Assembly: GCF_013249065.1 (NCBI RefSeq)
Contig: NZ_JABRWQ010000001.1
Location: 434,001 to 498,000, forward strand
DNA from: Winogradskyella litoriviva
GTDB lineage: Bacteria; Bacteroidota; Bacteroidia; Flavobacteriales; Flavobacteriaceae
Length of the DNA: 64,000 bases
Direction: 5' to 3'
Shown here: positions 13,415 through 15,837 of the stretch, piece after piece
Layout of the letters: each line of letters starts with the position of its first letter
Numbering within the stretch: position 1 is the first letter of the stretch
Program-made: the position numbers and the translations under genes
The notes under the pieces: generated by a model
The model's input: only the letters and a program-made list of their open reading frames with translations
What the model was told of the DNA's origin: nothing
Databases searched by the model: none

Positions 13415-13776
13415 TTTTTTATAAAAATTAACCTTATTTACTAAAAATGGTATAAGCTAAGTTGATTTTAGAGCTCAATAATATTGACTGTATAATATAT
13501 TAAACAAAAGAAGTTCTGTGAAATCAGAACTTTTTTTGTTTTCACCTAGAGTAAATAACCTTAATAATTATGAATAAGAACAAGTAATACTAAACCTAAT
13601 GGTATAAGTTCTCTATCCTATATTATTTGTTCTAAATGTTTATATTTCCTTTTCATAAAATAAAACGTTTAACTGATTCTTTTAGTTAAGCTTTTAGATA
13701 AGTATTTTATTTTTACTTTATTTGTGTTAAAAAAAACCAAACAAGGTTAAAATAGTGTATAAGTATATTAAATACG
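13415..13776. other. intergenic region without a recognised gene
   Basis: Apart from the terminator at 13511-13537, I see only AT-rich sequence with no convincing ORF, RNA gene or repeat before the promoter at 13777. Confidence 0.5.
13511..13537 (+). terminator. intrinsic terminator downstream of the zinc peptidase
   Basis: AAGTTCTG, a 6-base loop, then CAGAACTT followed by a run of T. A textbook rho-independent structure on the plus strand, about 100 bases after the peptidase stop. Confidence 0.8.
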
Positions 13777-13810
13777 TTGTTTTCTATACCTCATAAGCTG
13801 TGTAAATTTG
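13777..13810 (+). promoter_or_regulatory. strong Bacteroidota-type promoter before a small ORF
   Basis: TTG at 13777-13779, 23 bases, then TAAATTTG at 13803-13810. Both elements and spacing fit the consensus, making it one of the best promoter matches in the window. Expected transcription start is about 13817, leaving a leader of about 30 bases before the ATG at 13846. Confidence 0.6.
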
Positions 13811-13845
13811 CATCCGTTTTAAAAACCCCATTAAAATTAAAAATT

Positions 13846-13953
13846 ATGAAAACGAATAACAGAATAGCAGCAGAAAGTAAAGTCGGAACAAGAACAATAA
13901 AATTTGGTAAGACAAATTCAATGGTTTGGAATACAAAAAGACGCTATAAATAA
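13846..13953 (+). CDS. candidate 35-residue basic small protein
   Basis: ATG at 13846 opens a 35-codon frame (MKTNNRIAAESKVG... ending in NTKRRYK). The product is strongly basic and hydrophilic with no membrane helix or cysteine. The ORF sits between a good promoter (13777-13810) and a bidirectional terminator (13976-14007), so a short transcript of about 190 bases is likely. The start is preceded by an A-rich stretch, as is usual for genes in this group. I do not recognise the peptide. It may be a nucleic-acid-binding small protein, or the transcript could act as an RNA. Confidence 0.5.
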   Translation: MKTNNRIAAESKVGTRTIKFGKTNSMVWNTKRRYK

Positions 13954-13975
13954 TAAAAGAATTATTTTAAAAACA

Positions 13976-14007
13976 AAAAGCCCAATTGATTTCTCAATTG
14001 GGCTTTT
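13976..14007. terminator. bidirectional terminator between the small ORF and RNase G
   Basis: AAAAGCCCAATTG pairs perfectly with CAATTGGGCTTTT across a 6-base loop. T-runs exist on both strands, so it can end both the plus-strand small transcript and the minus-strand rng transcript. Confidence 0.85.
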
Positions 14008-14017
14008 CTAATAGATA

Positions 14018-15562
14018 TTATTTAATTTTGTCACCATTTTTGTCAAAAAAATGATATTCAAGATAAGTGTAAGCATCTCTAGGTAAAACTTTTACCCATT
14101 TTTTGTGTTCAATAAACCACTTTGAACGTACTGATGGAAACCCTTTGGTTAAAAAGGCTGCTATAAAAGGGTGTGTATTAAGAGTTACCTTTTTATAGTC
14201 TTTTTTGAAAACACGCTCTAGGTCTTGATTAATGCGTTCAATCACTTTAATTGGTGCTTCAATTTCATCACCTCCTATGAGATTAGGGTTTTCTTCTTTC
14301 GTTTTAATATTGCGTTCTGGCCTAACGCGTTGTCTGGTTATTTGCACTAAACCAAACTTACTCGGCGGCAATATTTTGTGCTTTGCTTTATCATCTTTCA
14401 TCTCATCTCTAAGATAATTATAAAGCTTTTTTCTGTTCTCTGCTTTGCCCATATCTATAAAATCGATAACTATAATTCCTCCCATATCACGTAAACGTAA
14501 TTGGCGAGCAATTTCTTGGGCAGAAATCATATTAACTTCTAAGGCAGTATCTTCTTGGTTCTTCTCTTTATTAGAGCGATTACCACTGTTTACATCTACA
14601 ACATGAAGGGCTTCGGTATGTTCTATTACCAAATAGGCGCCTTTTGCCATAGATACGGTTCGTCCGAATGATGTTTTTATTTGGCGTTCAATGCCAAATT
14701 TTTCAAAAATAGGAACACCATTCTTATAGTATTTTACTATAGACTCTTTGTTCGGTGCAATTTGCTGCACGTAATCTTTTACTTGTATGTACAATTCTTC
14801 ATCATCTACAACAATACCAGAGAATGAATCATTAAAAATATCCCTTAAAATTGAGGATGCTTTATTCATTTCTCCCAATACTTTAGTTGGGTGATGTACT
14901 TTGTACAACTTTTTACACATTGCTGTCCATCGATTCAGCAAATTTTGTAAATCATTATCGAGCTCGGCAACTTTCTTGCCTTCTGCTACAGTACGTATAA
15001 TAACTCCAAATCCCTTAGGTGTAATACTTTTTACGAGTCTTTTTAAGCGGTCTTTTTCTTCTTGTGATTCAATTTTTTGAGAGATTGAAATACGATTAGA
15101 AAAAGGCACTAAGACAATGTATCTTCCTGCAATAGACAATTCTGAACTAATGCGAGGTCCCTTTGTAGAGATTGGTTCTTTTACTACTTGTACTAATAAA
15201 GATTGATTAGATTTTATAGCATTTGCAATGCTACCATTTTTATCTAAATCTTTCTCCATCGGAAAGTCTTTAAGGGTATAATCCTTAAGTTTCCCTGTGC
15301 TTACACGTTTAATGAATTTTAAAAGAGAAGGCAATTGCGGTCCAAGATCATGATAGTGTAAAAAACCATCTTTTTCATAGCCAACGTTTACAAACGCAGC
15401 GTTTAAACCAGGAATAACTTTACGTATTTTGGCAATAAAAATATCACCAACTGCAAAGTTGTTATCCTCTTCGTCTTTATGTAATTCAATAAGTTTTCCA
15501 TCTTTTAATAAGGCAAAATCAACAATATCTGAACTCGATCTTACGATTAATTCTTTGTTCAT
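14018..15562 (-). CDS. rng: ribonuclease E/G family endoribonuclease
   Basis: A 514-residue protein, close to RNase G size and without the long RNase E C-terminal scaffold. An S1-type RNA-binding region (about residues 37-130, IRKVIPGLNAAFVNVGYEKDG) is followed by the catalytic core: Asp323 in VVDVNSGNRS and Asp367 in IVIDFIDM, with the spacing of the metal-binding aspartates of E. coli RNase E. It cleaves single-stranded AU-rich RNA in rRNA maturation and mRNA turnover. The C-terminal zinc-link CPxC motif of RNase E/G is not visible (HKILPPSKFGLVQITRQRVRP has no cysteines). Upstream lies the rng - small basic protein - HU arrangement common in Flavobacteriia. Confidence 0.9.
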   Translation of the reverse strand: MNKELIVRSSSDIVDFALLKDGKLIELHKDEEDNNFAVGDIFIAKIRKVIPGLNAAFVNVGYEKDGFLHYHDLGPQLPSLLKFIKRVSTGKLKDYTLKDFPMEKDLDKNGSIANAIKSNQSLLVQVVKEPISTKGPRISSELSIAGRYIVLVPFSNRISISQKIESQEEKDRLKRLVKSITPKGFGVIIRTVAEGKKVAELDNDLQNLLNRWTAMCKKLYKVHHPTKVLGEMNKASSILRDIFNDSFSGIVVDDEELYIQVKDYVQQIAPNKESIVKYYKNGVPIFEKFGIERQIKTSFGRTVSMAKGAYLVIEHTEALHVVDVNSGNRSNKEKNQEDTALEVNMISAQEIARQLRLRDMGGIIVIDFIDMGKAENRKKLYNYLRDEMKDDKAKHKILPPSKFGLVQITRQRVRPERNIKTKEENPNLIGGDEIEAPIKVIERINQDLERVFKKDYKKVTLNTHPFIAAFLTKGFPSVRSKWFIEHKKWVKVLPRDAYTYLEYHFFDKNGDKIK

Positions 15563-15747: not shown

Positions 15748-15837
15748 TTATTTTTTCTTGTGACGATTAGCACGTCTACGTTTTTTACGCTTGTGCGTCG
15801 CTACCTTGTGTCTTTTTCTTTTTTTACCACTTGGCAT
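15748..15837 (-). CDS. 29-residue very basic protein, AURKAIP1/COX24-domain type
   Basis: On the minus strand ATG 15837 opens a 29-codon frame, MPSGKKRKRHKVATHKRKK followed by an Arg-rich segment and a Lys tail, with no acidic residue. From memory, near-identical tiny proteins occur across Bacteroidota and are annotated as AURKAIP1/COX24-domain proteins, related to mitochondrial ribosomal protein mS38 and mycobacterial bS22. A small-subunit ribosomal role is therefore likely but inferred. It lies between HU and rng on the same strand. The frame is easily missed because of its size. Confidence 0.8.
   Translation of the reverse strand: MPSGKKRKRHKVATHKRKKRRRANRHKKK

Follow-up and report, generated by a model that had tools for sequence, protein, structure and literature searches.

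A conserved gene for a 35-residue basic protein beside rng in Winogradskyella litoriviva belongs to a group of tiny proteins in Flavobacteriaceae

A gap without any label lies next to the rng gene in a 64,000-nucleotide stretch of the Winogradskyella litoriviva genome (hereafter the window), and the question it raises is whether this gap encodes an overlooked small protein or a small regulatory RNA in which a short open reading frame is incidental. The original prediction for this DNA had offered both readings. The features on which our answer is based are as follows:

13745..13784, + strand: conserved upstream block, GGTTAAWATAGYRTATAAnnnnWTTAAAtctGTTGTTTTC, from the comparison of 22 loci
13777..13779, + strand: TTG, possible -33 element with a spacer of 23 to the -7 box, invariant in a 13-sequence alignment
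13803..13810, + strand: TAAATTTG, -7 box of the flavobacterial sigmaA type (TAnnTTTG), from conservation and the published consensus
13846..13953, + strand, stop codon included: coding sequence of a 35-residue basic protein (L-type), from homologues, pN/pS, and start context
13927..13950, + strand: codons of the C-terminal signature W-N-T-K-R-R-Y-K, common to 28-residue (S-type) peptides
13975..14008, not assigned to one strand: intrinsic terminator with a 15-pair stem, common with the convergent rng, from the terminator scan, conservation, and covariation
14018..15562, - strand: rng, ribonuclease E/G family, the convergent neighbour outside the unit (Pfam PF10150, E 1.3e-100)

The open reading frame at 13846-13953 (+) runs from ATG to TAA and its translation is MKTNNRIAAESKVGTRTIKFGKTNSMVWNTKRRYK (35 aa). 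The peptide contains 6 Lys and 4 Arg (10 K/R of 35), a single acidic residue, and no Cys, with a computed pI of 11.61 and GRAVY of -1.13, and no membrane helix was seen by eye, all of which agrees with the Lys/Arg-rich, cysteine-free, and non-membrane peptide that had been predicted. Although the same frame is already open from the TTG at 13777 (58 aa), the conserved start is the ATG at 13846, downstream of a probable transcription start near 13815.

Several lines of evidence indicate that this frame is protein-coding. Among 19 distinct coding sequences of 35 codons (171 pairs; the set was confined to relatives of this length with the K-V-G triplet), pN/pS was 0.31 in frame, whereas shifting the frame by +1 or +2 gave 1.47 or 0.75, respectively. 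The low in-frame ratio is partly biased because the sequences were collected by protein similarity, which favours low values; therefore, the contrast with the shifted frames is the better evidence of coding. Diversity at third positions exceeded that at the other positions, a pattern equalled in 1 of 10000 column shuffles, and the leader and third positions drift while the protein stays conserved across genera. Additionally, A is present at -3, -6, -12, and -13 relative to the ATG, and in the 19 distinct relatives it occurs at these positions in 17, 7, 18, and 14 sequences, respectively. A at these four positions accompanies efficient initiation in F. johnsoniae (PMC6847099, excerpted text).

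The homologue search proposed with the original prediction found relatives in Winogradskyella, Algibacter, Polaribacter, and Gaetbulibacter. With the single sequence as query, the peptide was identified in 6 of 199 Flavobacteriaceae genomes and in 13 of 60 genus genomes including its own. A profile of 18 relatives matched 18 of the 59 genus genomes that were at least 90 percent complete, comprising 16 full L-type matches (one with a tandem pair) and two weak ones, one of these with a stop codon. Scanning named genomes brought up 21 loci, labelled Winogradskyella (13), Polaribacter (three), and Algibacter and Gaetbulibacter (one each); the remaining three are unclassified. The tandem L-type duplication of one Winogradskyella genome (L022:4001-4265, the same as L010/L021) contains copies with 80 and 51 percent identity to the window peptide. 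Taken together, the frame kept across genera, the selection test that had likewise been proposed, the third-position excess, and the start context support the reading as an overlooked small protein, and 13846-13953 is almost certainly a conserved protein-coding gene.

The gene lies in a compact transcriptional setting. The promoter layout is TTG-N23-TAAATTTG, with the TTG at 13777, and TAnnTTTG has been described as the -7 box of flavobacterial sigmaA (PMC9723704, excerpted text). Sites of the form TTG-N17-23-TAnnTTTG occur 21 times on both strands of the window (first-order model mean, 8.0 per strand), and the promoter is absent from an E. coli-type promoter scan of the window. The promoter is thus supported because it is conserved among relatives and not because of in-window counts: TAnnTTTG was found within 190 bases upstream in all 22 L-type loci compared. 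The earlier ranking as one of the best promoter matches was not borne out by the 21 sites or the scan, although the promoter itself has support in its conservation.

The upstream block was recognisable by eye in 15 of the 22 loci (Winogradskyella, Polaribacter, and Algibacter-type) and was not seen in the other seven (Gaetbulibacter and several other genomes). Since this block is common to several genera, the gene and its control region move or persist together in a part of the family. Its first 28 bases matched without mismatch only here, with one other site at three mismatches in the same genome, using a pattern that was written to fit the site at 13745 and whose reversed-pattern controls gave 1 and 1; the block is essentially unique to the L-type gene in its own genome and may have a regulatory role. 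A regulon held in common through the upstream blocks of the L- and S-type genes was considered and rejected, because a 27-base S-type element occurs once in the genome and the L block has the single three-mismatch partner (controls, 1 and 1).

At the other end, the hairpin at 13975-14008 can serve both the L-type unit and rng. It had been predicted as a strong bidirectional terminator, and its 15-pair stem appears usable by both units, but the terminator scan lists it on the - strand only (4 terminators found; shuffled sequences gave 1.3 on average). This terminator is not peculiar to carriers of the peptide: by eye, all 43 non-carrier genomes of the genus also retain a hairpin next to rng (a pattern search missed a few with long loops). 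The L-type gene is shown by these comparisons as a short unit of its own, consisting of the upstream block, a predicted sigmaA-type promoter, a leader of ~30 nt with a start context of the kind preferred in Bacteroidetes, the reading frame, and the terminator common with rng. The self-contained unit of the original prediction is therefore upheld by the TAnnTTTG found in 22 of 22 loci and by flanking genes that differ between genera.

A short standalone unit with a strong terminator would also be expected of a small regulatory RNA with an incidental reading frame, and the independent short transcripts of F. psychrophilum (Rfp RNAs) are typically without coding potential, as described in the excerpted text of PMC9723704. 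By that description, the Rfp RNAs resemble the L-type unit as short standalone flavobacterial transcription units and differ from it in being typically non-coding; nothing connects Rfp18, which was considered as a possible link. By the very test put forward with the original prediction, the regulatory RNA can be given almost no weight, since the protein is conserved and the RNA shows no sign of a special fold: once the terminator is left off, the predicted fold of the transcript is no more stable than those of shuffled sequences (z -0.18), and five of the six predicted pairs changed on both sides in 13 aligned sequences lie in the terminator, whereas the sixth uses a base upstream of the probable transcription start. 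No conserved RNA structure beyond the terminator was found by folding against shuffles or by covariation in the 13 sequences, and no Rfam match reached the gathering threshold in the window. A translated RNA that also base-pairs through its leader or 3' part has a very slim chance. The start of the leader and the upstream block are well conserved within the genus (13-sequence alignment), which speaks for it, but leader length varies in the 22 loci (14-43 nt in most, 68 in one, and over 100 in two), and the lack of conserved structure beyond the terminator also argues against it.

The distribution of the gene provides insight into its history. In all 59 genus genomes rng is present, and inspection of the stretch beside it revealed the peptide in 16 and its absence in 43. 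The 16 peptides equal the number of full profile matches; therefore, within the genus the gene was seen only at this place. One of the 43 genomes (G157; locus L191, G157:C1:107552-109000) carries by eye an apparent decayed copy beside rng, with the frame MKYGNISSIVFNTKSGYI and a weak profile match (E 0.023), which is an apparent sign of loss in progress. A motif search found no remnant in the other 42, although a more decayed remnant would escape the motif. In a weakly resolved tree built from rng at the first 30 loci (13 carriers and 17 non-carriers), the 13 carriers fall in one half of 19 rows (support 86/85) together with six non-carriers, and the sister of the W. litoriviva genome is a non-carrier. 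Parsimony needs six changes on this tree, and well-supported branches force two. We read this pattern as one origin in that part of the genus followed by repeated loss, which the decayed copy would fit.

In other genera the L-type gene has other neighbours, named here by reading their sequences: feoB- and SCO1-like genes in Algibacter, maf- and transketolase-like genes in Polaribacter, and single-strand-binding-protein- and arginase-like genes in Gaetbulibacter. In all 12 other carriers inspected, the peptide is preceded by a gene whose end lies 194-220 bp away, and in a sister genome this gene encodes a Bax1-I (PF01027) membrane protein. This gene is missing from the window at 13415-13845, where tblastn shows no remnant.

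The peptide also belongs to a wider group. Shorter peptides that end in the same way are also picked up by the L-type profile (E cut-off 0.05; 47 of 397 family genomes, with many weak matches among them); MRTLNNNQLTGTLNGTKSNAWNSKRRYR, with ~28 residues, is typical of these peptides. A profile of 20 such S-type peptides had matches in 80 of 199 Flavobacteriaceae genomes, and more than one match in 46 of the 80; among these, the second match of the W. litoriviva genome is the window peptide itself, and a few matches are weak. Over the phylum, the S-type profile matched nine of 392 genomes, six in the family, where one match (inside a 481-residue frame) looks like chance, and three outside it, all partial with E 0.002 or worse. 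The S-type profile matches the window peptide (E 1.3e-4), and the L- and S-type profiles align over their last 19 columns with an HHalign probability of 97 and a pairwise E of 8e-11. By these profile comparisons, the L-type gene is shown to be one branch (L) of a Flavobacteriaceae group of predicted tiny proteins with the ending W-N-x-[KR]-R-R-[YF].

The S branch has a genomic organization of its own. Its genes occur as one to four neighbouring copies, often in tandem, and unusually many matches were found in two genomes (10 in G005 and six in G826), at several separate places. For distinct first copies, 43 groups were compared, including one truncated L-type row (L007); upstream, 37 of these groups have TGTAAC followed by CGTC, at a distance of exactly 16 bases in 34 of them, and TGTAAC-N16-CGTC does not occur in the window. 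Spacing of this kind is typical of promoters for ECF sigma factors. The S-type promoter appears mostly ECF-like, and a CGT box has been described for a presumed ECF motif (PMC9723704, excerpted text). A palindrome, TACTWTG-N5-CAWAGTA, overlaps the S-type promoter in many loci by eye; alone, it is near chance in the genome (7 against 6). In 20 long loci, the genes that recur nearby encode a conserved protein that Pfam does not match (in 18 loci), a dehydrogenase E1 (in 16), an ExbD-like protein (in 15), and Hsp20 (in 7).

The single S-type copy of the W. litoriviva genome, MRTLNSNQITSKTTETKSYSWNSKRRYR, is located at G000:C44:383716-383799 (L112:9717-9803), preceded by a perfect TACTATG-N5-CATAGTA plus a TGTAAC..CGTC promoter and followed by a 23-residue open reading frame, MKALSKIVNTSNSLDDDLKTSKV. 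A second small reading frame is often found behind S copies, with either 43-44 residues ending in W-x-G-x-KRYAH or 22-25 residues with an acidic run. The longer form has the consensus MKxIxKISRRxNxITQExL..F..SN..LWxGxKRYAH and occurs downstream of S copies in L097, L100, L106, L130, and others. Its comparison with the group profiles (HHalign probability 29-30, E 6e-4) is only suggestive of a distant paralogue.

The database searches gave little by way of precedent. Pfam showed no accepted match for the window peptide, a sub-threshold likeness to GerE (E 0.13) being judged chance, and none for the 20 S-type members; NCBIfam showed none for the window peptide, the 21 L-type members, or the 20 S-type members. 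For the 21 L-type members there was no match in PADLOC and only two weak matches in PHROGs (best E 0.022). None of the profiles had a convincing match among PDB chains, ribosomes included; the best, to the complex I subunit NDUFA13 (E 0.21), is a short likeness judged to be chance. In Pfam, NCBIfam, and PDB, the L-type peptide matched no ribosomal protein of a known family and no chain of a ribosome, and searches of one open-access paper collection, full-text motif searches among them, listed nothing on the peptide family. The earlier statement that no family is recognised is true of these libraries, but a family does exist and was built here.

Two further known systems invite comparison. One of the small basic ribosomal proteins known from Bacteroidetes, bS22/bL38 (AURKAIP1/COX24 type, 29 residues), is encoded at 15748-15837 (-) and matches PDB chain 7jil_5 (E 5.6e-10), while Pfam is silent; 7jil is presumably the F. 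johnsoniae ribosome. Like the L-type peptide, bS22/bL38 has ~30 residues, is highly basic, and has its own small gene near rng; unlike it, bS22/bL38 is found in solved ribosomes (7jil), whereas the L-type peptide has no convincing PDB match and no sequence relation was seen between the two. Arginine-rich RNA-binding peptides of the lambda N type consist of a short basic helix with Trp. The likeness in this respect is an analogy only, and the L-type gene differs in being chromosomal and in that no relative was found in phage collections.

A structure model built from 21 relatives is of low confidence (mean pLDDT 73.8, with 59.7-62.3 in the four other models; pTM 0.31). It points to two strands followed by a helix at residues 25-34, with most of the W-N-T-K-R-R-Y-K signature inside the helix. 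Within this signature, W, N, R, and R are invariant in 21 aligned L-type sequences. A nucleic-acid binder is the simplest reading, because the protein is strongly basic, has no membrane segment, and carries an invariant Trp and an Arg pair near its end. The points for RNA binding are the pI of 11.6, the 10 K/R of 35, the invariant W-N and R-R, and the helix of the low-confidence model. The transcript would be made and translated as its signals suggest, and the protein would remain cytosolic and use its basic C-terminal segment, which contains the invariant Trp, to bind RNA (most likely rRNA or the ribosome, or a structured mRNA); the L form may be made constitutively and the S form in response to stress. 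Of all the readings, the most likely is that of a small cytosolic protein binding RNA or the ribosome through this segment, and we regard it as possible rather than probable. A core ribosomal role is argued against because the gene is patchy, with its presence in 16 of 59 genus genomes, the decayed copy, and several changes on the rng tree. Basic charge also fits many other functions.

One such function, binding to a protein (RNA polymerase, a sigma factor, a protease, or RNase G), appears unlikely. Small proteins often act by binding proteins, and all 16 genus carriers have the peptide gene beside rng, but in other genera the neighbours are others, and rng itself occurs in all 59 genus genomes, whether or not they carry the peptide; on these grounds a co-factor of RNase G was rejected as a general explanation. 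A mini DNA-binding protein that regulates its own gene through the specific upstream block is distinctly unlikely. Each branch has its own block, essentially unique in the W. litoriviva genome, and the protein is basic with a modelled strand-strand-helix, which would suit such a role; nevertheless, the L and S blocks differ despite similar C-termini, the L block was not seen in 7 of 22 loci, a specific DNA binder of 28 residues would be very small, the weak model does not settle the matter, and a dedicated regulator elsewhere would give the same picture. Highly improbable, finally, is a toxic or antimicrobial peptide (type I toxin or bacteriocin-like). The cationic sequence with Trp and the tandem S-type copies are compatible with a toxin, but there is no membrane helix, no PADLOC match, and, by eye, no exporter or immunity gene among the neighbours in 13 loci. 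Relatives were also absent from viral contigs (L- and S-type profiles), plasmids (S-type query), and phages (L-type query), and an origin from a mobile element was rejected for the same reason.

The RNA- or ribosome-binding reading thus stands as the preferred one, and the whole explanation (a conserved gene, a group, cytosolic RNA or ribosome binding, and constitutive L versus stress-driven S forms) comes close to being probable. An unlabelled gap has become a member of a tiny-protein group with matches in 80 of the 199 genomes sampled from Flavobacteriaceae, which are a major marine family. The L-type gene appears as the visible end of this family-wide group, whose function we infer from sequence. 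The group has no accepted Pfam or NCBIfam model, and none of the searched libraries describes it as such; its motif, two promoter types, and tandem copies provide handles for genetics and biochemistry. The case also carries a warning that some short flavobacterial transcripts filed as small RNAs may in fact be mRNAs, for proteins too short to pass the usual length cut-off. It is conceivable, if doubtful, that Flavobacteriaceae have a hitherto undescribed small-protein system with a constitutive 35-residue form and a stress-switched, tandem 28-residue form under an ECF-type promoter, both acting through the W-N-x-K-R-R-Y segment on RNA or the ribosome. If this is true, copy number and the choice of sigma factor would let the cell adjust how much of a single tiny effector it makes.
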